Source: Rhabdothermincola sediminis
GTDB taxonomy: Bacteria > Actinomycetota > Acidimicrobiia > Acidimicrobiales > Acidimicrobilacustridaceae
Assembly: GCF_014805525.1 (NCBI RefSeq)
Contig: NZ_JACFSZ010000002.1
Location: 1-64,000 of the forward strand
Direction of reading: 5' to 3'
Length of the DNA: 64,000 nt
Within the stretch, counting starts at the first letter, position 1, and each line of letters starts with the position of its first letter. Of this stretch, positions 3,905 to 52,091 are shown piece by piece. The notes under the pieces are model-generated. The model had not been told where the DNA came from. It saw only the letters and a list, made by a program, of their open reading frames with translations, and made no database searches. The position numbers and the translations under genes are program-made.

Positions 3905-3918
3905 TGACGTCCGTGTCA
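3905..3918. promoter_or_regulatory. Operator-like palindrome TGACGTCCGTGTCA
   Basis: One of eleven TGAC-N6-GTCA sites in the window. It lies between divergent acyl-CoA dehydrogenase genes, 14 bp above the minus-strand start and 36 bp before the plus-strand ATG. It is preceded by CC, giving CCTGAC as in the extended consensus. Confidence 0.65.
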
Positions 3919-8892: not shown

Positions 8893-8906
8893 TGACACGG
8901 ATGTTA
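8893..8906. promoter_or_regulatory. Operator-like palindrome TGACACGGATGTTA
   Basis: Matches TGAC-N6-GTCA except for one base (GTTA). It sits 12 bp before the ATG at 8918 and 44 bp above the minus-strand start at 8848. It is flanked as AACC-TGAC and GTTA-GTT, matching the extended palindrome. Confidence 0.55.
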
Positions 8907-8917
8907 GTTTTCTCACC

Positions 8918-12697: not shown

Positions 12698-12711
12698 TGA
12701 CATGAGCGTCA
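12698..12711. promoter_or_regulatory. Operator-like palindrome TGACATGAGCGTCA
   Basis: One of the TGAC-N6-GTCA sites, followed by GAT. It lies between the divergent thiolase (start 12667) and acyl-CoA synthetase (ATG 12726) genes, 14 bp before the latter. Confidence 0.65.
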
Positions 12712-12725
12712 GATAAGGTCGGGGC

Positions 12726-14882
12726 ATGACCGCTCCACGGACCGACGTGACGGGCCGGCCGACCGCCCTCCGCCAGATCGACCTCGACACCTTCTTCCGG
12801 CCCAGGACCGTCGCCGTCATCGGTGCCAGCGACTCCGCCGGGCGGCCCAACAGCGCCATGTGGCGCAAGATCCGCCAGTGGGCGGAGCAGGCGGGCGCCG
12901 AGTGCTACCCGGTCAACCCCAACCGCGACCAGGTCGACGGGGTGCGCTGTTACCGCTCCGTGCTCGACATCCCCGGCGATCTCGACCTCGCCGCGATCCT
13001 GGTGGGCAACGCGGTGGAGATGTTCGAGACCGTGCTGGAGAAGAAGCCCCGCTTCGCGGTGATCTTCGCCGCCGGCTTCAACGAGGTCGGCCCGGAGGGC
13101 GAGGCGCTCCAGCGGCGACTCGAGCAGCTCATCGCCACCGGCAGCACGCACGTGCTGGGACCGAACACCAACCTCAACGCCTTCGAGACCTTCCGCGACC
13201 TGCCACCCCCGAAGATCGCGCTCATCACCCAGAGCGGACACCAGGGCCGACCGGTGTTCCAGGCGCAGGAGCAGGGCATCGCCCTGTCGCACTGGGCGCC
13301 GACGGGCAACGAGGCCGATCTCGAGTTCGCCGACTTCGCCGCCTACTTCGCCGACCAGCCCGAGGTCGGCGTCATCGCCGCCTACGTAGAAGGGTTCAAG
13401 GACGGGCGCACCCTCATGCTCGCCGCCGACCACGCGGCCACCGCCGGCAAGCCGATCGTCGCGGTCAAGGTGGGCCGCACCGACGAGGGCCGCTCCATGG
13501 CCAAGTCCCACACCGGTCACCTAACCGGCTCCGACGCTGTGGTTTCCGCCGTGTTCCGCCAGTACGGCATCACTCGGGTGGACGGGCTCGACGAGCTCAC
13601 CGACGTGGCCGCCACGCTCGCCCGCACCAAGCCCCCGGCACAGCCCGGCCGGCGCAACGTGTGCATCTACGCCATCTCGGGGGGCACCGGCGCGCACATG
13701 GCCGATCTGGTCGCCGCCGCCGGCCTCGAGCTGGCCGAGCTCACCCCCGCCAGCCGGCAGGCACTGCGGGAGTGGATCCCGGGCTACCTGCGGGTCTCCA
13801 ACCCGGTCGACTCGGGTGGCGCGCCCTCCGCCGACGAGCGAGGCCCCAAGATCGTGCAGACGATCCTCGAGGACCCGAACATCGACATGCTCATCTGCCC
13901 CATCACCGGCGCGCTGGCCTCGATGAGCCGACCCATGGCCCAGAGCCTGGTCGACGCGGCCGCCCGCACCGACAAGCCGATCCTGGTGGTGTGGGGGTCC
14001 CCCGACAGCACCGACCCCGTCTACACGGAGGTGCTGCTGGGATCCCGGCTGCCCGTGTTCCGCACCTTCCACAACTGCGTACTGGCGGCGCGTGCCTACT
14101 TCGACCACCACGACTTCCTCGCGCGCTACCGCTCGCCGTTCGCCAAGCCCGTCACCCGGCGCTCGCCGGCCGGGGCCAGGACCGACCGCCTGCTCAGCGC
14201 CGGGCACCCGCTCAGCGAGCACGAGTCCAAGGCGCTGCTCGCGGCGTACGGCATCCCCGTGACCCGCGACGTGCTCGCAACCTCGGCCGCGCAGGCGGTG
14301 CGGGCGGCGCGCGAGATCGGCTTCCCCGTGGTGCTCAAGGTGAGCTCGCCCGACCTGCCCCACAAGTCCGACCTCGGTCTGGTGCGCGTCGGCCTGCACA
14401 CGGCCGCGGAGGTCCAGCGGGCGTTCGCCGAGCTGGAGGCCACCGCCCGGAAGGCGAACCGCAGAGCCACCATCGACGGGGTGCTGGTCTCCGAGCTGGT
14501 CAGCGGCGGGGTGGAGACCGTGGTGGGGGTGTCCCAGGACGAGCTGTTCGGGCCCGTGATCATGTTCGGGCTCGGCGGGGTCTTCGTGGAGGTGTTCGAG
14601 GACGTGACCTTCCGGGTGCCCCCGTTCGGCAAGGACGAGGCGCTGCGGATGGTGCAGGAGGTCCGGGGCTACAAGCTCCTGCAGGGCACCCGGGGACGGG
14701 CGCCGGCCGACGTGCGGGCCCTGGTCGAGGCGATCATGAAGGTCCAGCGCCTGGCCCTCGACCACGCGGGCACGCTCGCCGAGCTCGACATCAACCCGCT
14801 GATGGTGCGACCGAAGGGCCAGGGCGTGGTTGCCCTCGACGCGCTGGCCATCCCCCGATCCACCCCCCAGCCGACCCCCTGA
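12726..14882 (+). CDS. ADP-forming acyl-CoA synthetase-like protein (CoA-binding plus ATP-grasp)
   Basis: 718 residues with alpha and beta parts fused. CoA-binding Rossmann domain at about 25-150 (RTVAVIGASDSAGRPNSAMW), a succinyl-CoA-ligase-like region with SHTGHLTGSDA, whose His262 is the likely phosphohistidine, and a C-terminal ATP-grasp domain from about 500 (LSEHESKALLAAYGIPVTRD; LKVSSPDLPHKSDLGLV). It is expected to make acyl-CoA from acid, CoA and ATP, releasing ADP and phosphate, or to run in reverse. The 16 bp before the next GTG contain AGGAG, so they form an operon with the thiolase-like/DUF35 pair. A paralogue fused to an acetyltransferase lies at 16552. Confidence 0.88.
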   Translation: MTAPRTDVTGRPTALRQIDLDTFFRPRTVAVIGASDSAGRPNSAMWRKIRQWAEQAGAECYPVNPNRDQVDGVRCYRSVLDIPGDLDLAAILVGNAVEMFETVLEKKPRFAVIFAAGFNEVGPEGEALQRRLEQLIATGSTHVLGPNTNLNAFETFRDLPPPKIALITQSGHQGRPVFQAQEQGIALSHWAPTGNEADLEFADFAAYFADQPEVGVIAAYVEGFKDGRTLMLAADHAATAGKPIVAVKVGRTDEGRSMAKSHTGHLTGSDAVVSAVFRQYGITRVDGLDELTDVAATLARTKPPAQPGRRNVCIYAISGGTGAHMADLVAAAGLELAELTPASRQALREWIPGYLRVSNPVDSGGAPSADERGPKIVQTILEDPNIDMLICPITGALASMSRPMAQSLVDAAARTDKPILVVWGSPDSTDPVYTEVLLGSRLPVFRTFHNCVLAARAYFDHHDFLARYRSPFAKPVTRRSPAGARTDRLLSAGHPLSEHESKALLAAYGIPVTRDVLATSAAQAVRAAREIGFPVVLKVSSPDLPHKSDLGLVRVGLHTAAEVQRAFAELEATARKANRRATIDGVLVSELVSGGVETVVGVSQDELFGPVIMFGLGGVFVEVFEDVTFRVPPFGKDEALRMVQEVRGYKLLQGTRGRAPADVRALVEAIMKVQRLALDHAGTLAELDINPLMVRPKGQGVVALDALAIPRSTPQPTP

Positions 14883-14898
14883 GGCCAGGAGCGCGCCG

Positions 14899-16077
14899 GT
14901 GCCCACCTCGGGGATCAAGGACGCCACCGCCATCGTGGGCGTCGGCCAGACGGCGTTCGCCAAGGCCTTGCCCCAGAGCGAGAAGCGCCTCGCGCTCGAA
15001 GCCATCCTGGCCGCGCTCGACGACGCCGGCATCGACCCCTCAGAGGTCGACGGCCTGGCGTCGTACACCCTCGAGACCACGGAGGAGATCGAGATCGCCC
15101 GCAACCTCGGCACGGACGACATCACCTTCTTCGGCCAGGTCGGCTACGGCGGGGGTGCGGGCTGCGCGGTGGTCGGCCACGCGGCGATGGCCGTGGCCAC
15201 GGGGCAGTGCACGGTGGCGGTCGCCTGGCGATCGCGCAAGCGGGGGGCCGCCTCGGCTCGGCCCTGGGCGGGGGTGTCGAGCCGGGTGCGGGGCAACCAG
15301 CAGTGGTCCCGCCCGTGGGGGCTGCTGCGCCCGGTGGACGAGATCGCCATGCTCACCCGCCGCTACCTGCACACCTACGGCGCCACCCGCGACCAGCTGG
15401 CGAACGTGGCCCTCGCGTTCCGCAAGCACGCCAACCGCAACCCCGGGGCGATGATGCACGACAAACCCCTGTCGCGCGAGGAGTACCTCGCGGCCCGCTG
15501 GATCTCGGAGCCGCTGTGCCTGTTCGACAACTGCCTCGAGTCCGACGGCGCAGGTGCGGTGGTCATCACCAGCACCGAGCGTGCCCGGGACACCAAGCAC
15601 GTGCCGGCGCTGGTGCACGGCTTCGCCCAATCGATCCCCAAGCAGCACCAGACCATGACCAACTTCTTCTGCGACGACCCCCTGCTCGGGCCGTCGTGGG
15701 CTTGCGCGGAGCTGCTGTGGCGGCAGGCCGACTTCGGTCCGGCGGAGGTCGACGTGGCCCAGATCTACGACGCGTTCTCGCCGCTCGTGCCGCTGTCGCT
15801 CGAGGGCTACGGCTTCTGCGAGCGGGGGGAGGGCGCCGCGTTCACCGAGGACGGCAACCTCGAGTGGGACCGGGGATCGCTGCCCACCAACACCTCCGGT
15901 GGCGGGATGAGCGAGGCGTACGTGCACGGCTTCAACCTCATCGTCGAGGGTGTGCGACAACTCCGGGGTGAGTCGTACTGCCAGGTGGCGGGGGCCGAGA
16001 CGTGCCTGATCACCAGCGGCGAGGGTGTGCCCACCAGCGCGCTGCTCCTGCGGAGGGGCGAAGCCGGTGACCGCTGA
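14899..16077 (+). CDS. SCP-x-like thiolase/lipid-transfer protein (possible aldolase subunit)
   Basis: 392 residues of the thiolase fold, non-classical lineage: DATAIVGVGQTAFAKALPQS at the N terminus, GGGAGCAVVGHAAMAVATGQ at the usual position of the first active-site segment, DVAQIYDAFSPLVPLSLEGY, and LPTNTSGGGMSEAYVHGFNL near the end. The family includes the Ltp proteins, some of which act with a DUF35 partner as retro-aldolases in steroid side-chain degradation. The next gene is exactly such a partner and overlaps by 11 bp. GTG 14899 is preceded by AGGAG. Thiolase or aldolase chemistry is not decided by sequence alone. Confidence 0.85.
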   Translation: MPTSGIKDATAIVGVGQTAFAKALPQSEKRLALEAILAALDDAGIDPSEVDGLASYTLETTEEIEIARNLGTDDITFFGQVGYGGGAGCAVVGHAAMAVATGQCTVAVAWRSRKRGAASARPWAGVSSRVRGNQQWSRPWGLLRPVDEIAMLTRRYLHTYGATRDQLANVALAFRKHANRNPGAMMHDKPLSREEYLAARWISEPLCLFDNCLESDGAGAVVITSTERARDTKHVPALVHGFAQSIPKQHQTMTNFFCDDPLLGPSWACAELLWRQADFGPAEVDVAQIYDAFSPLVPLSLEGYGFCERGEGAAFTEDGNLEWDRGSLPTNTSGGGMSEAYVHGFNLIVEGVRQLRGESYCQVAGAETCLITSGEGVPTSALLLRRGEAGDR

Positions 16078-21912: not shown

Positions 21913-21926
21913 TGACGCCCATGTCA
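21913..21926. promoter_or_regulatory. Operator-like palindrome TGACGCCCATGTCA
   Basis: First of two TGAC-N6-GTCA sites, with centres 22 bp apart (about two helical turns), directly upstream of the amidohydrolase operon. Reverse complement TGACATGGGCGTCA matches the consensus orientation. Confidence 0.65.
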
Positions 21927-21934
21927 GCAAAGCC

Positions 21935-21948
21935 TGACACGAGCGTCA
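21935..21948. promoter_or_regulatory. Operator-like palindrome TGACACGAGCGTCA
   Basis: Second of the pair. It is preceded by CC (CCTGAC). Two more GCGTCA half-sites follow at about 21956 and 21968, making this the richest cluster of the motif in the window. Confidence 0.7.
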
Positions 21949-23318: not shown

Positions 23319-23332
23319 TGACGCCGACGTCA
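23319..23332. promoter_or_regulatory. Operator-like palindrome TGACGCCGACGTCA
   Basis: TGAC-N6-GTCA followed by GGTTTT. It lies between the divergent dehydratase/SDR operon (start 23257) and the SDR/hydratase operon (start 23374). Confidence 0.65.
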
Positions 23333-25202: not shown

Positions 25203-25868
25203 TCAGGCCGAGGGGTGGAAGAACCCCCGGTGCGCGATCCGGGCCAGCGTGGCGGCCAGCTCGTCGTCGCCGAAGGGCAGGTCGCGGGAGGTCAGGAAGT
25301 ACGTCGACCGCTCGATCATCGCCAGCAAGGCCGCGCCGGCCAGCTCGACGTCCGCATCGTCACCGCGCTCGTCGCGCAACCGGGCCACCAGCGACCCGGT
25401 GATCCGGCTGAAGGTCTTCGCGCCGAGCCGGGCGAGGTCACGACTCGAGACCTGGTCCTCCATCCAGGCCCGGATCACCACACCGTACCGGCGGTAGGTG
25501 GCGATGAACGCCGACACCCATTCCCGCAGGACATCGACCCCTTCCTCGCCGGGTGGCACGGGACCGAGCGACGAGGCCAACTCGGTCATCTCGTCCGCGC
25601 ACTGCACGGCCAGAGCGCGGAAGAGGTCTTCCTTGTTGGAGAAGTACAGGTAGAACGTGCCGTGGGAGACGTCAGCCACCCGCACCACGTCGTCCACCCG
25701 GGCGGCGTGGTAGCCCTTCTCGGCCAGCACCTCCATGCCCGCGGCGAGCAGGGCGGCCATCGTGCGCCGACCCTGGCTGCGCAGCTCCCGGCCCGCGAGG
25801 GGCGAGGCGGGGGGATCGCCACGCCGGCCACGTGCGCTCGTGGTACCCGATCTGCGGCTTCCCGCCAC
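25203..25868 (-). CDS. TetR-family transcriptional regulator
   Basis: 221 residues from a GTG at 25868 chosen for AGGAGG five bases upstream. HTH at about residues 35-80 contains GYHAARVDDVVRVADVSHGT followed by FYLYFSNKEDLF. The ligand domain is all-helical (WVSAFIATYRRYGVVIRAWM). The recognition region is nearly identical to that of the TetR at 46411, so the two may see similar DNA. It is divergent from a ligase gene with only 29 bp between starts, and no TGAC-N6-GTCA site is present there. It is probably a repressor responding to an acyl-CoA. Confidence 0.88.
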   Translation of the reverse strand: MAGSRRSGTTSARGRRGDPPASPLAGRELRSQGRRTMAALLAAGMEVLAEKGYHAARVDDVVRVADVSHGTFYLYFSNKEDLFRALAVQCADEMTELASSLGPVPPGEEGVDVLREWVSAFIATYRRYGVVIRAWMEDQVSSRDLARLGAKTFSRITGSLVARLRDERGDDADVELAGAALLAMIERSTYFLTSRDLPFGDDELAATLARIAHRGFFHPSA

Positions 25869-25897
25869 GGCCACCTCCTGCAACGACGCCCGGTGGG

Positions 25898-32604: not shown

Positions 32605-32618
32605 TGACAGCAACGTCA
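32605..32618. promoter_or_regulatory. Operator-like palindrome TGACAGCAACGTCA
   Basis: TGAC-N6-GTCA followed by GGTT. It sits between the divergent ETF operon (start 32575) and the hydroxyacid dehydrogenase operon (start 32640), about 21-30 bp from each. Confidence 0.65.
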
Positions 32619-36135: not shown

Positions 36136-36149
36136 TGACACGAACGTCA
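36136..36149. promoter_or_regulatory. Operator-like palindrome TGACACGAACGTCA
   Basis: TGAC-N6-GTCA followed by GGTT, in the 149-bp region between the divergent TenA-like and hydantoinase B genes. TTAGACTTTTATGACA just before it is unusually AT-rich and may contain promoter elements. Confidence 0.7.
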
Positions 36150-43423: not shown

Positions 43424-44560
43424 CTACGAGCGCGGCAACCCGAGCAGGCGCTCGGCGATGATCGTGCGCTGGATCTCGGAGGTTCCCCCCGCGATCGACG
43501 CGGCCTTGCTCCACAGCCACTGGCGAGACCACTCCCCCTCGAGGGGCGACGCGTCGCCCACCACGTCGAGCGCGGTCTGCGAGAGGTGCTGGGTCATGTC
43601 GCTCCAGGCCAGCTTGATCCAGCTCGACTCGGCTCCGGGCTCGATCCCCCGACCCAGCCGGGACAGCGTCCGCCAGTTGTGCAGGCGAAGCACCCGCAGC
43701 TCGACGAAGACCTGGGCGAGCGCGTCGGCGACCTCCACCGAGTCGAGCCGGCCGTCGGCCGCGGCCTGCCGGTAGAGCCGGTCGAGGTACACCTCGTGCA
43801 CGACCTGCTCCTTGAACGGGAAGTTGGTGCCCCGCTCGTGGGCCAGCGTGGTGTTGGCGACCGCCCAGCCGGCGTTCAGCGTGCCCACGAGCTGCTCCTG
43901 GGGGACGAACACCCGGTCGAGGAACACCTCGTTGAACTCGGTCTCGCCGGTGATCTGCCGCAGAGGGCGGATGTCGATCCCCTCGGCGGTCATGTCCACC
44001 ACCAGGTACGAGATGCCCCGGTGCCTGGGAGCGCCGGGGTCGGTGCGGGCCAGGCAGATGCCCCAGCGGGCGAACTGCGCGTAGGAGGTCCACACCTTCT
44101 GGCCAGTGAGCAGCCACCCTCCGTCGACCGGCTCGGCGCGGGTGGACAGCGCGGCCAGGTCCGATCCGGCGTCCGGCTCGGAGAACAGCTGGCACCAGAT
44201 CTCGCTGGCGTCGAGGATCGCCGGCAGCCAGCGGCGCTTCTGGGCCTCCGTGCCGTGGGCCAGCAAGGTGGGGCCGGCCAGGTTGATCCCGACCCGGTTG
44301 ACCGGCTGCGGCGCGCCGGCCCGGGCGTACTCCATGTTGAACAGCGCCACCTCGACGGGCGTGGCGTCCCGGCCGCCGTACTCGGCCGGCCACCAGATGC
44401 CCACCCACCGGTCGGCGGCCATCCTGGCCTGCCAGGCGCGCCCCCAGTCGAGCTCCTTCTCCGGCGAGGCGAACGGCGCGGGCAGCTCCAGGTTCGCCGC
44501 CAGCCACGCTCGCACCTCGGCCGCGAACGCGGCTTCCTGGGAGGTGAACGCCAGATCCAT
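43424..44560 (-). CDS. Acyl-CoA dehydrogenase
   Basis: 378 residues. DLAFTSQEAAFAAEVRAWLA, WPAEYGGRDATPVEV, FSEPDAGSDLAALSTRAE, GQKVWTSYAQFARWGI and ASIAGGTSEIQRTIIAERLL at the C terminus. It is most like the long subunit at 3955 (shared GQKVWTSYAQFA and LxxHGTEAQ patterns). Its ATG abuts the stop of the ligase gene at 44561 with no spacing, so the ligase and dehydrogenase are translated together: activation then first oxidation. No short-subunit partner is adjacent. Confidence 0.9.
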   Translation of the reverse strand: MDLAFTSQEAAFAAEVRAWLAANLELPAPFASPEKELDWGRAWQARMAADRWVGIWWPAEYGGRDATPVEVALFNMEYARAGAPQPVNRVGINLAGPTLLAHGTEAQKRRWLPAILDASEIWCQLFSEPDAGSDLAALSTRAEPVDGGWLLTGQKVWTSYAQFARWGICLARTDPGAPRHRGISYLVVDMTAEGIDIRPLRQITGETEFNEVFLDRVFVPQEQLVGTLNAGWAVANTTLAHERGTNFPFKEQVVHEVYLDRLYRQAAADGRLDSVEVADALAQVFVELRVLRLHNWRTLSRLGRGIEPGAESSWIKLAWSDMTQHLSQTALDVVGDASPLEGEWSRQWLWSKAASIAGGTSEIQRTIIAERLLGLPRS

Positions 44561-46333
44561 CTACAGGTCCCAGAAGCGCTCGCGGCCGGCACGGACGAAG
44601 CGCTGGTGCAGGTCGCGCTCGTCGCTCTCGGTGAAGGGCCGGTAGCGCTCCTCGCCCCGCTCCCGCCGGTAGAGCTGGTCGGTGCCGACCCGATCGAGTC
44701 GGAACTTCTCGTGCACCAGGGTGCGCTTGACGACCTTGTTGGTGCCGGTGGTGGGCAGCTCCGCCGCCACGCGCAGGTAGCGGGGGCGCCATTTGGGGCC
44801 GATGTCGTCGAGCGAGTCCAGCCACCGGGCGAAGGCCGCGCCGTCGAAGGACCGGCCTTCTCGCAGGACCACCGCAGCCATGACCTGGTCGCCCGCCTGC
44901 TCGTCCGGCACGCCGTAGACGCTGGCGAGCACGACATCGGGATGGCGGCCGAGCGCGGCCTCGATGGGCCCGGCCGGGAAGTTCTCCCCGTCGACCCGGA
45001 TCCAGTCCGCGTTGCGACCGGCGAAGTAGACGTTGCGGTCCTCGTCCATGTAGCCGAGATCCCCGCTCCAGTACCAGCCCCGGCGGGTGGTGGCGGCGGT
45101 GGCCTCGTCGTTGTTGTAGTAGCCCTCGAACGGTCCTGCGCCCGCGGTGTTCACGATCTCACCCACGCAGTCGCTTGCGTTGACCAGCCGGCCGTGCTGG
45201 TCGAAGCGAGCAGGAGCCAGCTCGTTGCCGTCCTCGTCGACGATCTTGATGTGCGGTGGCGCGATCCCCATCGCGCCGGGCTTCACGGGGCCGTCCCGGT
45301 CGAGGGAGATACCCCCTTCGGTGGCCCCGAACGCGTCGATGACCTCGGCCACCCCGAACCGGCGGCGGAACGCCTCGACGACCTCCGGTGATCCTTCGTT
45401 GCCGAAGGCGATGCGCAAGGGGTTGTCGGCATCGTCGGGCTTCTCGGGAGTGGCGACGAGGTAGGCGAGCGGTTTGCCGGTGTAGTTGAAGTAGGTGGCC
45501 CGGTAGCGGCGCACGTCGGCGAGCCACCCCGAGGCCGTGAACCTCCGGGCCAGCCCGACCGCGCACCCGTACACGAGCGAAGGCATCCAGCCCACCATGA
45601 CCGCGTTGGAGTGGAACAGGGGCATGCTCACGTAGCCCACGTCATCCGGCCCCAGCCCGAGCAGCAGGCCGAGGCGGGTCCCGGTGACCAGCAGCCGCCG
45701 CTGGCTGCAGATCACCGCCTTGGGAGCGGCCGAGGTGCCGGAGGTGAAGATCAGCGCCCAGGTCGTGGAGGGATCCGGTTCGAACCCGTCGTCGTCGCCC
45801 ACCGCACCGTCGAGCACGCGCTCCAGGTCGCTGCCCAGCGCCGGGTGGGGGTCGTCCCGGCGGCGCCAGCGGGACGAGACGAGGATCTGCTCAGGCCCGA
45901 ACGGCAGCTCCTCCACGATCGGTTCCAGCCGGTGCAGGTGCGTGGGCTCCGTGATCAGCAGGCCGATGTCGGTGTGGACGATGTCGCGCCGCAGGTGCTC
46001 GCCCTGGCGGGTGTGGTTGAGCCCGACCACCGCCGCGCCCGTGAAGGCGGCGCCACCGAAAGCGAACAGGTAGTCAGGGGTGTTGTCGAGCAGCACCCCG
46101 ACGTGGGGTGGCCGCCCGTCGGGCAACCGCTGGCGGAACAGGGCCGCCCAGCGCAGCGACTCCTCCACGTACTGCCGGTGGGTCCAGACCTGCTCACCGA
46201 AGAGGACCGCGGGGCGGGACGCGATCGCCGGATCATCCTGGTTGCGGCGGAGCAACGCGGCCGCGTTGCCCGCGGGTGGCACGGCCTGGCCGGGCTCGGG
46301 GACCGATCGGGAGGCGGAGGCCGGCACGAACAC
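44561..46333 (-). CDS. Acyl-CoA synthetase (AMP-forming, FadD17-like)
   Basis: About 590 residues. ATP loop FTSGTSAAPKAVICS, AFGATEGGISLDRDG, YWSGDLGYMDEDRNVYFAGR, then RVDGENFPAGPIEAALGRHP and TGTNKVVKRTLVHE with the C-terminal Lys. The Val-Pro start region is not conserved, so the start is uncertain: GTG 46333 is used, and GTG 46327 would fit a leaderless mRNA from the -10 box at 46336. The gene is divergent from a TetR gene with two operators between. It abuts the dehydrogenase at 43424. Confidence 0.87.
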   Translation of the reverse strand: MFVPASASRSVPEPGQAVPPAGNAAALLRRNQDDPAIASRPAVLFGEQVWTHRQYVEESLRWAALFRQRLPDGRPPHVGVLLDNTPDYLFAFGGAAFTGAAVVGLNHTRQGEHLRRDIVHTDIGLLITEPTHLHRLEPIVEELPFGPEQILVSSRWRRRDDPHPALGSDLERVLDGAVGDDDGFEPDPSTTWALIFTSGTSAAPKAVICSQRRLLVTGTRLGLLLGLGPDDVGYVSMPLFHSNAVMVGWMPSLVYGCAVGLARRFTASGWLADVRRYRATYFNYTGKPLAYLVATPEKPDDADNPLRIAFGNEGSPEVVEAFRRRFGVAEVIDAFGATEGGISLDRDGPVKPGAMGIAPPHIKIVDEDGNELAPARFDQHGRLVNASDCVGEIVNTAGAGPFEGYYNNDEATAATTRRGWYWSGDLGYMDEDRNVYFAGRNADWIRVDGENFPAGPIEAALGRHPDVVLASVYGVPDEQAGDQVMAAVVLREGRSFDGAAFARWLDSLDDIGPKWRPRYLRVAAELPTTGTNKVVKRTLVHEKFRLDRVGTDQLYRRERGEERYRPFTESDERDLHQRFVRAGRERFWDL

Positions 46334-46335
46334 CC

Positions 46336-46341
46336 ATTGTA
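46336..46341 (-). promoter_or_regulatory. Possible -10 box (TACAAT) of leaderless ligase promoter
   Basis: TACAAT on the minus strand lies at the inner edge of the palindrome at 46342-46355 and 8 bp above the in-frame GTG at 46327. Binding of a repressor there would block the promoter. The spacing fits transcription starting at or next to the start codon. Confidence 0.35.
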
Positions 46342-46355
46342 TGACACCGTTGTCA
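46342..46355. promoter_or_regulatory. Operator-like palindrome TGACACCGTTGTCA
   Basis: TGACA-N4-TGTCA, followed by GG. First of two sites between the divergent ligase and TetR genes; it is next to the ligase promoter. Confidence 0.7.
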
Positions 46356-46374
46356 GGTCCTCCGGGGCGGTTCC

Positions 46375-46388
46375 TGACACCCTTGTCA
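46375..46388. promoter_or_regulatory. Operator-like palindrome TGACACCCTTGTCA
   Basis: Second site, centre 33 bp from the first (about three helical turns), 22 bp before the TetR GTG. It is preceded by CC. Its position suits autorepression by the TetR protein. Confidence 0.7.
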
Positions 46389-46410
46389 CGTTCCTTTAGC
46401 CTCGTGCACC

Positions 46411-47091
46411 GTGCCGACCCGCAAGAAGGCCACCACCCGTCCATCGGACACCGACCCGGCCGGCAACGGCGAGCGCCCGCCCGCACCCGGGCGCGCCGGC
46501 GCGCCCGCCCGCCGACGCGAGCTGCGCGCCCGTGGCCAGCGCACCATGCGAAAGCTCCTCGACGCCGGCATCCAGGTCTTCGCCAAGCGGGGCTACCACG
46601 CGGCACGCGTCGACGACATCGTGAAAGCCGCCCACACCAGCCACGGCACCTTCTATCTCTACTTCTCGAACAAGGAGGACCTGTTCCAGGCGTTGGTGGC
46701 CGACGTGGCGGACGAGCTCGCCACCCTGCGGAGATCGCTCGGCCCAGTGACGCCCGACGAGAAGGGGCTGGCGGAGCTGGAAGCCTGGCTCGATCGCTTC
46801 GCCTCGCTCTACGAGCACTACGGCCCCATCATCCGGACCTGGACCGAGGCGGAGGTCGGTGGCAGCGACGTCGGCCGCCTGGGAACCGACGTGGTGGGGG
46901 AGCTGGCCAGCGCGCTGATCGATGCCTCCGGCGGACCCACCGACGTCGATCCCGCCATCGCCGCCATGGGCCTGGTGGCCATGGTCGAGCGGTTGAACTA
47001 CTTCGTGCTCTCGGGGCAGGTCGCGGCCACCCGCGACCAGATGGTGACTACCCTCGCCGGCGTCGTCCATCGAGCACTCTTCGCCCGCTGA
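46411..47091 (+). CDS. TetR-family regulator, candidate master regulator of the window's regulon
   Basis: 226 residues. Basic N-terminal tail, HTH at about 45-85 with GYHAARVDDIVKAAHTSHGT then FYLYFSNKEDLFQAL, and a C-terminal ligand domain (WLDRFASLYEHYGPIIRTWT). The GTG at 46411 has no Shine-Dalgarno, consistent with a leaderless message. Two TGACA-N4-TGTCA sites lie in its divergent promoter region, so autoregulation is likely. The same motif recurs at nine other sites in the window, which makes it the best candidate for a regulon-wide repressor. This is inference from position only. Confidence 0.88.
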   Translation: MPTRKKATTRPSDTDPAGNGERPPAPGRAGAPARRRELRARGQRTMRKLLDAGIQVFAKRGYHAARVDDIVKAAHTSHGTFYLYFSNKEDLFQALVADVADELATLRRSLGPVTPDEKGLAELEAWLDRFASLYEHYGPIIRTWTEAEVGGSDVGRLGTDVVGELASALIDASGGPTDVDPAIAAMGLVAMVERLNYFVLSGQVAATRDQMVTTLAGVVHRALFAR

Positions 47092-47137: not shown

Positions 47138-47151
47138 TGACACGGGCGTCA
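47138..47151. promoter_or_regulatory. Operator-like palindrome TGACACGGGCGTCA
   Basis: TGAC-N6-GTCA followed by GATT, 61 bp before the ATG of the ABC binding-protein gene. It places the transporter in the same regulon as the catabolic genes. Confidence 0.65.
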
Positions 47152-47212: not shown

Positions 47213-48529
47213 ATGTCCAAGCGGATCGCCACGCTGGTTGCGCTTCTCGCGCTCGTCGCGGCGGCGTGCGGCAACGCCGAGACCGATTCGTCCAGGAACG
47301 GAGGCGGCGACGCACCCACTGGCACCGCCAGCCCGTCCGACCCGACCAGGAAGGTACCGGTCGACCAGCCCGGGGTCACCGACACCGAGATCCGGGTCGG
47401 GGGCGTGGCGTCGGTCAGCAACCCGCTCGGTGGCAACTACGGGGACGCGTTCGACGGCGTCCGGGCCTACTTCGAGATGGTCAACTCCCGGGGCGGCATC
47501 TACGGGCGGCAGCTCAAGCTCGTCGCCGAGCGTGACGACCAGGTGGCCAACAACCAGCAGCAGGTGCAGGCTCTCATCTCGCAGGACAAGGTCTTCGCCA
47601 TCCTCCCGGTGGCCACGCTGCTGTTCACCGGGGCCGACGTCGCCGCCACTTCGGGCACCCCGACCTTCGGGTGGACCATCAACCCCGAGTGGGCCGGCCC
47701 TCCCAACCTCTTCGGTGACCGCGGTGGGGAGCTGTGCTTCAACTGCCCGGCACCGATGGTGCCCTGGCTGGCCAAGGACACGGGGGCGACGAAGATCGGG
47801 GTGCTCGCCTACAACGTCCCTCAGTCCAAGGAGTGTGCGGAAGGCATCATCGCGTCGTTCCGGAGGTGGCCGACCGCCGAGGTGGCCTTCCAGGACCTGG
47901 CGCTGAGCTACGGGGTCACCGACTTCAGCGTGCAGGTGAGCAAGATGAAGCAGGCCGGGGTCCAGTTCGTCACCACCTGTATGGACCTCAACGGGGTGAC
48001 GAACCTCGCCCGGGAGATCGACAAGCAACAGCTCGACGCCGTGCAGTACATGCCGAACGCGTACAACGCCGACCTGGCGAGGCAGTTCGCCGACATCCTC
48101 GACGGCTCGCTGGTGCTGACCTGGTTCGTCCCCTTCGAGGTCCAGGACCAGCCTGAGGGCATGCGGAACTACTTCGAGTGGATCGACAAGACCGGGGGGG
48201 CGCGAAGCGAGCTCTCGATGTCGGGCTGGCTCGCTGCCGACCTCTTCTACCGCGGCCTGGTGGCGGCCGGTCCCGAGTTCACCCAGAAGAAGGTCGTCGA
48301 CGCCATCAACTCCTTCGAGCACTGGACCGCCGACGGGGCCATCCCAGGAGTGGACTGGACGATCGCGCACGACCAGCGCTCACCCGTGTCCTGTGGCGCG
48401 ATCTCCAAGATCAGCAACGGCGGCTTCGTCCCCCAGTACGGCGAGCCAGGCCGGCCCTTCATCTGCTTCGACGTGGAGGCCGACCAACTGCCCGACCAGC
48501 CCGAGCGCAAGGCCGGCGAGAAGGGCTAG
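47213..48529 (+). CDS. Branched-chain-type ABC transporter solute-binding lipoprotein (LivK-like)
   Basis: 438 residues. Lipoprotein signal (ATLVALLALVAAAC), a Thr/Ser/Asp linker, then the periplasmic binding-protein fold: VTDTEIRVGGVASVSNPLGG, FEMVNSRGGIYGRQLKLVAE, QALISQDKVFAILPVA and TKIGVLAYNVPQSKECAEGI. It binds the imported ligand. Such Liv-type proteins often bind aromatic or fatty acids rather than amino acids in degradative clusters, as the neighbours here suggest. It leads an operon of five genes. Confidence 0.9.
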   Translation: MSKRIATLVALLALVAAACGNAETDSSRNGGGDAPTGTASPSDPTRKVPVDQPGVTDTEIRVGGVASVSNPLGGNYGDAFDGVRAYFEMVNSRGGIYGRQLKLVAERDDQVANNQQQVQALISQDKVFAILPVATLLFTGADVAATSGTPTFGWTINPEWAGPPNLFGDRGGELCFNCPAPMVPWLAKDTGATKIGVLAYNVPQSKECAEGIIASFRRWPTAEVAFQDLALSYGVTDFSVQVSKMKQAGVQFVTTCMDLNGVTNLAREIDKQQLDAVQYMPNAYNADLARQFADILDGSLVLTWFVPFEVQDQPEGMRNYFEWIDKTGGARSELSMSGWLAADLFYRGLVAAGPEFTQKKVVDAINSFEHWTADGAIPGVDWTIAHDQRSPVSCGAISKISNGGFVPQYGEPGRPFICFDVEADQLPDQPERKAGEKG

Positions 48530-48562
48530 GCGCGGCCTCGCCGCCGAGCCCGGGGAGCACCG

Positions 48563-50566
48563 ATGTCCGAGCTCCTGGCCTACGTGATCCGAGGGATCCC
48601 GGTCGGGTGCGTGTTTGCCCTGATGGCGACGGGCATCGTGCTCACCTACAAGACCTCCGGGGTGTTCAACCTGGCCTTCGGCGCCCAGGCCTTCGTCTCC
48701 GCCGCCGTCTACTACGACCTGGTGATCAACCGGGGCTGGCCCTCGCTCGCTGCGCTCGCCGTCGCGGTGGCGGTGATCGGGCCGGGGCTGGGCCTGCTGC
48801 TCGATCGCCTCCTCTATCGCCACCTCCGCTCCGCGGGCACGCTGCCCAAGCTGGTGGTCTCGCTCGGCCTGCTGGTGGCGATCCCGCAGATCGTCAAGCT
48901 GTGGTTCGGCTCGGGATCGGCGTTCAACCCACCCGGTGCCATCCGCTCCAGCTACGTCCTGCGCTTCGGCGACTACAGCCTCGACACCAACCAACTCGCC
49001 ACCATCGCCATCACCGCGGCGGCGGCCGGCGGGCTGACGCTGCTGTTCCGGGCCACGAACCTCGGCCTGCGCATGCGGGCCGTCGTCGAGAGCGCCCGCA
49101 TGGCCGAGCTCAACGGCGTCAACGCGGAGCGGGTCAGCAGCGTCTCGTGGATGCTCTCCAGCTTCTTCGCCGGCCTGGCCGGGGTGCTGCTCGCTCCCCT
49201 CTTCGCACAGATCAGCGAGGTCCACTTCTTCACCCTCCTCGTCGCCGCGCTGGCCGCGGCCGCCTTCGGGCGGCTGTCGAGCATCCCGCTGACCCTGCTC
49301 GGCGGGCTGCTGCTCGGCGTGCTGCAGGCGATGCTCGCGGGCTACCTGCCCTCCGACAGCGTCCTGGCCCAGGGCCTGCGACCATCGCTGCCGTTCCTCG
49401 CGCTGTTCCTTCTGCTGCTGTTCTGGCCGGGCCTGCGCCAACCCCGGGAGGTCACCGACCCTCTGGGTGGCGTCGATCCTCCGCCGCCCGCGCCACCGGC
49501 GGCGATCCGCGACCGGACCCTCACCCTGGCGACCAGGGGCGTCGCGGTGGTCTTCGTCGTCGGGTCCAGCGTCCTCGCCCTGACGGCCTTCGATGCCTTC
49601 TGGCTCTCGGTGGTCACAAAGGGGGTGATCCTCGGCGCGATCTTCCTCTCCTTCGTGATCCTCACCGGGATCACCGGCCAGATCTCCCTCTGCCAAGCCA
49701 CCTTCGCCGCGGTCGGGGCGTTCACCGTGGCCCGGTTGGTGGCGGAGACCGGGGTGAGCGTGCTGGTCGCGCTGTTCGCCGGGGCGGCCGTGGCGGCGCT
49801 GGTCGGGGCGTTGATCGCGCTCCCCGCGCTCCGCCTCGGTGGGATCTACCTGGCGCTGGCCACGCTCGCCTTCGCGTTGATGTTCGAGTACGTGGTGCGC
49901 CCGCTGGACTGGGTGAGCGGGGGGTTCCGCCCACCCCGGGTGCCACGGCCCCGGATCGGCGCCGTGGACTTCTCGAGCGACAGGGCCTTCTTCGTGCTGG
50001 CGTTGGCGGTGCTCGCCCTCGCCGCCCTCCTCGTGTTCGCGTGGAAGCGCGGCGCGACCGGCCGGATGCTCGACGCGGTACGAGGCAGCGAGATCGCCGC
50101 CTCCTCCGTGGGGATCAATCCCTTCGCCCGCAAGGTGCTCGCCTTCTCGCTGTCGGCCGGCATCGCGGGCTTCGGTGGAGGCCTGCTGGCCTCGTTCGAG
50201 GGCCGGGTCAACTACGACGCGAACTTCACGTACTTCTTCGGTCTGGTGTGGGTGGTGCTGGTGGTGACCCTCGGTTCGCGATCCATCCAAGCGGCCATCA
50301 CCGCGGGGGTGGCGTTCATGGTCTTCCCCCGCCTGCTGGAGCTGGCCGGCGTCTCACAGTCCTTCTCCCAGGGCATCGCCTTCATCCTCTTCGGCCTTGG
50401 TGCGGTCACCTACGCGAAGCATCCTGAGGGCATCGTCGAAGCCCGGACCCGCGCCTCGTTGGAGTGGACGATGCGGAAGCTGGCGCGCCGCGGCGAGAGC
50501 GCTGCTGGCCGCCCACCCCACCAGGAAGACGCCGTACCGGCGGTGGGTGTGGGAGCAGGGCGATGA
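48563..50566 (+). CDS. Fused LivH-LivM ABC permease
   Basis: 667 residues with two permease halves in one chain. Residues about 1-300 are LivH-like (AYVIRGIPVGCVFALMATGI; LAFGAQAFVSAAVYYDLVIN), followed by a Pro-rich linker (PPPPAPPAAIRDR) and a LivM-like half (FVILTGITGQISLCQATFAA, LRLGGIYLALATLAFALMFE). Each half carries roughly eight hydrophobic segments. The fusion would fix 1:1 stoichiometry of the two normally separate subunits. The last residues overlap the ATPase gene by 4 bp (ATGA). Confidence 0.9.
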   Translation: MSELLAYVIRGIPVGCVFALMATGIVLTYKTSGVFNLAFGAQAFVSAAVYYDLVINRGWPSLAALAVAVAVIGPGLGLLLDRLLYRHLRSAGTLPKLVVSLGLLVAIPQIVKLWFGSGSAFNPPGAIRSSYVLRFGDYSLDTNQLATIAITAAAAGGLTLLFRATNLGLRMRAVVESARMAELNGVNAERVSSVSWMLSSFFAGLAGVLLAPLFAQISEVHFFTLLVAALAAAAFGRLSSIPLTLLGGLLLGVLQAMLAGYLPSDSVLAQGLRPSLPFLALFLLLLFWPGLRQPREVTDPLGGVDPPPPAPPAAIRDRTLTLATRGVAVVFVVGSSVLALTAFDAFWLSVVTKGVILGAIFLSFVILTGITGQISLCQATFAAVGAFTVARLVAETGVSVLVALFAGAAVAALVGALIALPALRLGGIYLALATLAFALMFEYVVRPLDWVSGGFRPPRVPRPRIGAVDFSSDRAFFVLALAVLALAALLVFAWKRGATGRMLDAVRGSEIAASSVGINPFARKVLAFSLSAGIAGFGGGLLASFEGRVNYDANFTYFFGLVWVVLVVTLGSRSIQAAITAGVAFMVFPRLLELAGVSQSFSQGIAFILFGLGAVTYAKHPEGIVEARTRASLEWTMRKLARRGESAAGRPPHQEDAVPAVGVGAGR

Positions 50567-51336
50567 CCGCGGCCGCGCCCCCCTTGCTCGACGCCCGGGG
50601 CATCACCAAACGCTTCGCGGGCATCCAAGCCCTCGACCGGATCGACCTGGTGGTGGAGCCGGGCGAGATGGTGGGGCTCATCGGGCCGAACGGCGCCGGC
50701 AAGACCACTCTGTTCAACTGCCTGTACGGCCTGCTCCGGCCCGACGCCGGGCGGGTGTACTTCGCCGGGCAGGACGTCACCGGCCTCCCCACCCACCGGC
50801 GGGCACGGCTCGGCATCGCCCGCACCTTCCAGCGGATGGAGCTGTTCACCGGGATGTCCGTGCTCGATCACCTGATCGTGGCCGCGCAGCCAGCCACCAG
50901 CCGGTTGAGCGTCCTCACCGACCTCATGACCCGGGGACGCCCACCGGCGGAGGTGCACGACCGGGCGGTGGAGATCCTGGCGATGCTCGGCTTGCAGACC
51001 GTGGCCGATCGACCGATCGAGGCCCTCACCCTCGGCCAGGGCCGGCTGGTCGAGCTCGGGCGCGCGCTCATGACCGAGCCCCGCCTGCTGTTCCTGGACG
51101 AACCGTCGTCGGGGCTCGACCGGCTGGAGACCGCGGAGGTGGCGGCCGTGCTCGTGCGGGCTCGGCGGGAGCGGGGCGTGACCTTCGTGCTGGTCGAGCA
51201 CGATCTCAACCTGGTGCGAGACGTGACCGAGCGGCTCCACGTCCTTGACTACGGCACCGTCATCGCCTCCGGCCCGACCCGGGAGGTGCTCGACGACCCC
51301 GTCGTTCGAGAGGCGTACCTGGGGACCCCGGTGTGA
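50563..51336 (+). CDS. ABC transporter ATPase (LivG-like)
   Basis: 257 residues. Walker A GPNGAGKT at 41-48, LivG-type insert with ARTFQRMELFTGMSVLDHLI, LFLDEPSSGLDRLE as Walker B and VEHDLNLVRDVTERLHVLD. The signature is LTLGQGRLVE rather than LSGGQ, a common LivG variant. It powers the fused permease together with the LivF-like ATPase. It overlaps both neighbours by 4 bp. Confidence 0.92.
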   Translation: MTAAAPPLLDARGITKRFAGIQALDRIDLVVEPGEMVGLIGPNGAGKTTLFNCLYGLLRPDAGRVYFAGQDVTGLPTHRRARLGIARTFQRMELFTGMSVLDHLIVAAQPATSRLSVLTDLMTRGRPPAEVHDRAVEILAMLGLQTVADRPIEALTLGQGRLVELGRALMTEPRLLFLDEPSSGLDRLETAEVAAVLVRARRERGVTFVLVEHDLNLVRDVTERLHVLDYGTVIASGPTREVLDDPVVREAYLGTPV

Positions 51337-52091
51337 ACGGGCCCCTCCTCGAGCTCGACCGGGTCGAGGCCGCGTACGGTCCGTTCCGCGCCCTGTTCGG
51401 GGTCTCGTTCACCGTCCAGCCCGGCGAGGCCGTGGCGCTGCTCGGCAGCAACGGGGCCGGCAAGACCACGGTGGCCCGGGTCTGCTCGGGCCTGCTGCAC
51501 CCGTCGGCGGGCACGATCCGCTTCGAGGGCGAGGACGTGTCGAGCTCGAAGGCCTTCAAGCTCGCTCGGCGCGGCATCAGCCACGCGCCGGAGGGCCGGT
51601 CGGTGTTCGCGTCCCTCACCGTCGAGGAGAACCTGGAGCTGGCCTTCCACCAAGCGTTCGGCCGGCGGGGCGCACGGGCCGCGGTGGAAGAGGCGTACGA
51701 GCTGTTCCCCCGGCTCGGGGAGCGGGCCGCACAGCACGCGGGGTCGCTGTCGGGGGGCGAGCAACGGATGCTCGCCCTCGCCCGGGTGCTCGTGAACCCG
51801 CCCAGGCTGCTCATCGTCGACGAGCTGTCACTGGGACTCGCCCCGATCATCGTGAACGAGGTGTACCAGCAGCTCGCTCGCCTGAAGGGCAAGGGCATCA
51901 CCCTGCTCGTCGTCGAGCAGCACGTGGAGCACGCGCTGGCCCTCGCCGACCGGGTGGTGGTGCTCTCCCGCGGCGAGGTCTCCTACCAGGGCCCGGTGAT
52001 CCCCATCGAGGAGCTGGCCCCGTTCTTCCTGCCCCGGCAGCGAGAAGCGGCGGAGGACCAGGTCGGGCCGGAGCGCGGCGATGGTCGCTGA
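51333..52091 (+). CDS. ABC transporter ATPase (LivF-like)
   Basis: 252 residues. Walker A GSNGAGKT at 38-45, HAPEGRSVFASLTVEENLEL (the LivF Q-loop region), signature LSGGEQRMLALARVL and Walker B LLIVDELSLGLAPIIVNEVY. The GTG start overlaps the LivG-like stop (GTGA). The C-terminal tail is acidic and longer than usual (REAAEDQVGPERGDGR), overlapping the VOC gene by 11 bp. Confidence 0.92.
   Translation: MNGPLLELDRVEAAYGPFRALFGVSFTVQPGEAVALLGSNGAGKTTVARVCSGLLHPSAGTIRFEGEDVSSSKAFKLARRGISHAPEGRSVFASLTVEENLELAFHQAFGRRGARAAVEEAYELFPRLGERAAQHAGSLSGGEQRMLALARVLVNPPRLLIVDELSLGLAPIIVNEVYQQLARLKGKGITLLVVEQHVEHALALADRVVVLSRGEVSYQGPVIPIEELAPFFLPRQREAAEDQVGPERGDGR

Follow-up and report, generated by a model that had tools for sequence, protein, structure and literature searches.

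Judging from sequence, TetR-A is likely to be an autoregulated TetR-family repressor of a β-oxidation regulon, a reading in which we have good confidence. Its gene is preceded by two putative operators, O1 and O2, both copies of the palindrome TGACRN4YGTCA. The sites, their non-random number and placement, and their conservation with tetR-A and not with its paralogue tetR-B were computed directly. The features found in the window, by which we mean the whole 64,000-nucleotide stretch of DNA analysed, are listed in Table 1.

Table 1. Features of the tetR-A locus and of the regulon in the window. Candidate promoter boxes were read from the sequence, and those of tetR-A are predictions.
Feature	Position	Strand	Remarks
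Regulon site	3905..3918	.	Two divergent acyl-CoA dehydrogenases
Asymmetric variant site, TGACACGGATGTTAG	8893..8907	.	Between two divergent reading frames
Regulon site	12698..12711	.	Thiolase / ADP-forming-type CoA ligase divergent promoter
Two regulon sites (21913, 21935)	21913..21948	.	22 bp apart; upstream of amidohydrolase
Regulon site	23319..23332	.	Hydratase (FAS1_DH type) / SDR divergent promoter
tetR-B	25203..25883	-	TetR-A paralogue (48% identity); no operator at own promoter
Regulon site	32605..32618	.	Electron-transfer flavoprotein / 2-hydroxyacid dehydrogenase divergent promoter
Regulon site	36136..36149	.	Haem-oxygenase-like / hydantoinase B divergent promoter
Acyl-CoA dehydrogenase	43424..44560	-	Downstream of ligase; conserved neighbour
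Acyl-CoA ligase, FadD17/CasI-like	44561..46333	-	Real start may be internal GTG near 46284
Candidate -10 TACAAT, ligase promoter	46336..46341	-	Abuts O1
Operator O1 (putative), TGACACCGTTGTCA	46342..46355	.	Ligase-proximal; PWM 19.6
Candidate -35 CTGACA of tetR-A	46374..46379	+	Inside O2
Operator O2 (putative), TGACACCCTTGTCA	46375..46388	.	tetR-proximal; PWM 23.8
Candidate -10 TAGCCT of tetR-A	46397..46402	+	17 bp after CTGACA
tetR-A, TetR-family regulator	46411..47091	+	226 aa; GTG start; HTH ...RVDDIVKAAHTSHGTFYLYF; Pfam TetR_N E 6.5e-18
Operator O3 (putative), TGACACGGGCGTCA	47138..47151	.	Upstream of livK; palindrome also before livK in 5/6 orthologous loci
LivK/LivHM/LivG/LivF-type ABC importer	47213..52091	+	Behind O3; conserved neighbour

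The pattern TGACRN4YGTCA occurs 32 times in the whole 3.29-Mb genome, with ten copies in the window. Genome-wide, the reversed pattern is found only once, and lengthening the spacer by one base leaves six matches. Because the reversed pattern is a weak control, we added a control on spacer length: the window contains ten copies of TGAC-N6-GTCA, but only 0-2 at each of the other spacer lengths between 0 and 10. The sites are concentrated between genes, 24 of the 32 being intergenic compared with an intergenic fraction of 9.3% in the sample, a rough figure given that the sample was chosen around the sites. A typical intergenic site lies less than 100 bp from one or two divergent starts, according to our own gene calls. 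The full consensus reads roughly ACCTGACRYnnRYGTCAGGT. The one result compatible with O1 and O2 being products of chance or base composition is a search of the window allowing two mismatches, which returned 17 matches for 13.8 expected, no clear excess and uninformative. Exact spacing, intergenic placement and the conservation described below refute this explanation, which we regard as practically eliminated.

Both palindromes at tetR-A are exact and lie where the sequence-only reading had placed them, at 46342 and 46375, spaced 33 bp from start to start, with the minus-strand ligase reading frame on one side and the plus-strand tetR-A frame on the other. O2 lies 23 bp and O1 56 bp before the start of tetR-A. 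With a scoring matrix trained without these two sites, the scores of O1 and O2 (Table 1) fall where those of most regulon sites do. Neither ranks among the best members of the regulon, since an inner TT shared by both (TGACACCsTTGTCA) departs from the RY...RY of the regulon consensus and is uncommon among the other sites. O1 and O2 are possibly weaker operators that permit basal expression of tetR-A.

That the inner site touches a -10 box, as had been proposed, is correct for the ligase-side site only. O1 abuts TACAAT on the minus strand (46341-46336; ATTGTA on the plus strand), which would make a fair ligase -10 box, whereas O2 supplies a -35-like CTGACA for tetR-A. If TACAAT is used as the -10 box, the ligase would have to start at the internal GTG near 46284 and not at 46333. 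Similarly, TAGCCT as the -10 box would make the tetR-A transcript nearly leaderless, starting just before the GTG at 46411. A stricter consensus promoter scan gave no hits in the region and passed neither the candidate ligase box pair nor that of tetR-A.

The double site at the tetR-A promoter is a real feature. Site pairs occur elsewhere in the regulon, at 21913/21935 (22 bp apart) and C9:73353/73384 (31 bp apart), and two copies are also present at the orthologous tetR-A promoters of G175 (35 bp apart) and G172 (49 bp apart). Given that the spacing varies among orthologues and regulon pairs, the exact value of 33 bp should not be taken as a signature of cooperativity. One operator per divergent promoter fits the pairs better than a fixed cooperative pair.

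When the 24 TetR matches of this genome (G000) were compared with the site list, only tetR-A had a site at its promoter. With so many TetR genes, and some two dozen promoters that bear a site, a single coincidence of this kind would not be rare, and we therefore tested conservation. In an earlier, mixed set of homologues the palindrome was found in 14 of 43 cases, with 0.04 expected. We then made an independent scan of 84,980 species genomes, whose best 80 relatives yielded 68 non-redundant, testable loci. A locus was counted as positive if a site scoring 15 or more was present in the roughly 400 bp that precede the HTH codons, and the expectation was taken from Markov-simulated sequence. Among these best relatives, the palindrome precedes 35 of 45 A-like genes and none of 23 B-like genes, compared with 0.05 expected in all; the remaining ten A-like genes have no upstream site scoring 15 or more. 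Kinship inflates counts of this kind; the contrast between A-like and B-like genes is drawn from the same kinds of genome. Within the same family, the palindrome precedes each of the four TetR-A orthologues (48-68% identical), in two copies at two of them, and it occurs again before the downstream livK. In a tree of 34 homologues, nine of the ten site-bearing genes fall on the TetR-A side, the exception being a TetR-B-like gene of G061. The proposal that the arrangement fits autoregulation is thus supported by a palindrome that travels with tetR-A. Raw palindrome counts across the order did not cleanly separate genomes with TetR-A from those without, and for this reason we do not use them as proof.

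The whole locus is conserved. The order acyl-CoA dehydrogenase-ligase/site/tetR-A/site/livK is syntenic in G169, G175, G172, G072 and G108, and is partly seen in G180; O3 is missing from G108, and the ligase lies about 3 kb away in G169. These loci also bear on whether TetR-A could act only locally, on the divergent locus that contains its gene, with another protein reading the sites genome-wide. The inner TT of O1 and O2 and the ease of a single chance overlap would both be compatible with such a division. However, full-consensus sites are present at orthologous tetR-A promoters (AACATGACATGTACGTCAGGTA in G172, AACGTGACATTCGTGTCAGCTC in G169), and no other DNA-binding regulator was found among the scanned genes flanking the sites. 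We consider a purely local role unlikely.

TetR-A matches the TetR_N domain (PF00440) with 64.7 bits (cut-off, 24), and the two palindromes near its gene that have been kept with it are what a TetR/AcrR-type protein would be expected to bind. It passed no cut-off of the named NCBIfam families. Against the FadR_Bac, FasR, MftR, ScbR and AcuR equivalogs, the best score was 51.8 bits, compared with cut-offs of 150 or more. FadR of Bacillus and FasR of Mycobacterium resemble TetR-A in controlling fatty-acyl metabolism and give weak NCBIfam matches, that of FadR over the HTH only, but TetR-A stays far below their cut-offs (51 vs 200 bits for FadR, 45 vs 330 bits for FasR).

By its arrangement, the locus is of a known kind, and TetR-A very probably belongs with the autoregulated repressors of the KstR/BkaR type. 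Mycobacterial BkaR (Rv2506 / MSMEG_4718) is an autorepressor of the TetR type whose divergent intergenic region, shared with genes of acyl-CoA metabolism, contains two palindromes; it has remote sites as well (PMC3920632). The two palindromes in the divergent promoter of tetR-A suggest autoregulation by analogy. The BkaR operator is different, GTTA(N)T(N4)A(N)TAAC as opposed to TGACRN4YGTCA, and its regulon is small, with 10-12 genes compared with approximately 24 intergenic sites here. KstR (Rv3574), a mycobacterial TetR repressor with a large regulon of lipid and cholesterol catabolism, binds a palindrome in its own promoter, which is divergent from fadE34 (PMC1995591). The tetR-A locus would resemble it in placing a large lipid regulon under one motif. 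The KstR operator, TnnAACnnGTTnnA, also differs from TGACRN4YGTCA (PMC1995591), and the KstR model gives TetR-A no more than 25.9 bits (NF033703; cut-off, 280).

The genome encodes a separate KstR-like protein, distinct from TetR-A, and a KstR-type regulator might be thought to control the palindromes. The best candidate, C9:131783-132331, scores 148 bits and lies approximately 5 kb from the site at C9:126634. This score is below the KstR cut-off of 280 bits, none of the listed sites is at the promoter of the candidate, and the published KstR motif is a different operator (PMC1995591). We rejected the KstR-type regulator on its sub-cut-off score and different operator, and consider it very improbable as the reader of the sites.

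The genes beside the sites form a coherent set and encode acyl-CoA dehydrogenases, thiolases, enoyl-CoA hydratases, MaoC-type hydratases, SDRs, AMP-forming and ADP-forming-type CoA ligases, an ETF, a ChsH2-type OB protein, amidohydrolases, hydantoinase-type subunits and an ABC importer. From these genes and the family matches below, the pathway is likely to be degradation of sterol side chains or related acyl-CoAs. The thiolase at C9:72161-73339 scores 552.6 as a steroid 3-ketoacyl-CoA thiolase, above the NCBIfam cut-off of 515, and has a double palindrome upstream (C9:73353 and 73384, 31 bp apart; L064:8354-8398). In the window, a lipid-transfer protein at 14830-16077 passes the cut-off of its subfamily. 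The ligase beside tetR-A is nearest to the steroid-22-oyl-CoA synthetase CasI (SterCoASynCasI, 533 bits) but well below the cut-off of 900. A site at C3:73723 was also found 42 bp before a gene for a HAMP and adenylate/guanylate cyclase protein (L058:10280-11800), which is unexpected in a β-oxidation regulon.

We propose the following mechanism for TetR-A. We infer that it binds the sites and, from its family, that it represses rather than activates, is used as a homodimer and responds to a ligand. In the homodimer, each SHGTFYLYF recognition helix would contact one of the two TGAC halves of TGACRN4YGTCA. One dimer on O2 would cover the -35 region of tetR-A and another on O1 would lie beside the -10 box of the divergent ligase; with both sites occupied, tetR-A and the ligase-acyl-CoA dehydrogenase genes would be shut together. 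Occupancy of O3 would shut the ABC importer, and approximately 20 more intergenic sites would do the same for thiolases, acyl-CoA dehydrogenases, hydratases, SDRs, aldolase-type thiolase/OB proteins, ligases and the ETF. An acyl-CoA or steroid-CoA of the pathway would then release TetR-A; such a ligand is a reasonable assumption that fits the regulon content. This names a likely controller and operator for a large acyl-CoA degradation regulon, probably in part for sterol side chains, in uncultivated Acidimicrobiia; none of the papers searched describes such a regulon. The conserved tetR-A locus offers a means of locating the regulon in metagenomes.

Although TetR-A very probably regulates the sites, it may not do so alone. 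TetR-A and TetR-B resemble each other much more than either resembles any other TetR of the genome (next TetR, E 7e-12), and their recognition helix regions are nearly identical (HTSHGTFYLYF in TetR-A, DVSHGTFYLYF in TetR-B). TetR-B adjoins a site-controlled hydratase/SDR/ECH cluster, itself conserved in the family, and is divergent from an apparent CoA ligase. Given this cluster and nearly the same recognition helix, TetR-B can probably read the same half-site. TetR-A and TetR-B might therefore share operators, binding either as a heterodimer or as separate homodimers that respond to different ligands, with TetR-A as the autoregulated member and TetR-B as a second sensor of the same regulon. 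Both proteins are present in several family members. G173 retains 28 sites together with a TetR-B orthologue and no clear TetR-A, its only other TetR match being weak and partial, and the TetR-B-like gene of G061 (another family, L080) carries the palindrome at its promoter. Against sharing, the palindrome is absent from all 23 B-like genes of the public-genome set. Sharing is quite possible, although we lean slightly towards thinking that it does not occur. It would dispute only that TetR-A acts alone: the earlier view of TetR-A as "the" likely regulator is supported by conservation, but TetR-A may be one of two. The palindrome is likewise absent from the tetR-B promoter here and in same-family orthologues, and no other conserved palindrome stood out at TetR-B promoters of the family. 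As none of the 23 B-like genes carries it, TetR-B is not autoregulated through the palindrome.

Relatives with two TetR domains provide further information on the half-site. Some genomes of the order encode double-TetR proteins of approximately 440 residues, the second half of which is TetR-A-like (37% identical). Their recognition helices are SHGTFYRYF or a close variant in the second half and SRPAFYQYF or a close variant in the first. TGAC-N6-GTTA is present just upstream of six of nine double-TetR genes (L143, L144 (around 3340), L145, L147, L148, L149), with 0.02 expected, the pattern having been first noticed and then counted on these same genes; the GTTA half is always gene-proximal. The simplest reading of these sequences assigns TGAC to SHGTFY and TAAC to SRPAFY. 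TGAC as the half-site of TetR-A is thus independently supported by double TetRs that carry SHGTFYRYF and have operators with one TGAC half. RutR may have a similar half-site geometry.

Taken jointly, these observations suggest a half-site code. Single-domain SHGTFYLYF homodimers would read TGAC-N6-GTCA, double TetRs with SHGTFYRYF and SRPAFYQYF would read TGAC-N6-GTTA(G) with GTTA towards their own gene, and the asymmetry would come from one helix swap in a fused dimer; TetR-A, TetR-B and the double TetRs would be interchangeable on one β-oxidation regulon. We put forward this code tentatively, as a proposition only just short of an even prospect. Mce3R, the double-TetR repressor of M. tuberculosis, has two TetR domains per chain and a non-palindromic operator (PMC11667970). 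Its layout is the same two-TetR chain as in the double-TetR proteins of the order (PMC11667970). In a sequence comparison with the PDB, Mce3R ranks with the best matches to TetR-A (E 5.4e-11, over the HTH region only), and its regulon is also tied to lipid and cholesterol metabolism; TetR-A differs in having a single TetR_N domain in 226 residues and palindromic sites. The contrast between single-domain and double-TetR relatives turns the non-palindromic operator of Mce3R-like proteins into a testable rule relating helix to half-site.

Further asymmetric sites cluster near some double-TetR genes. In the present genome, the site at 8893-8907 is the only match to TGACRN4YGTTAG, and no double TetR was found there; the start of the right-hand reading frame resembles that of an acyl-CoA dehydrogenase. 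G179, a member of the same family, has 32 palindromes and no close match to TetR-A or TetR-B beyond a double TetR. It also contains ten asymmetric sites, and many of its sites are clustered near the double TetR and on contig C20 (L138 = C8:44000-63900; L139, L140).
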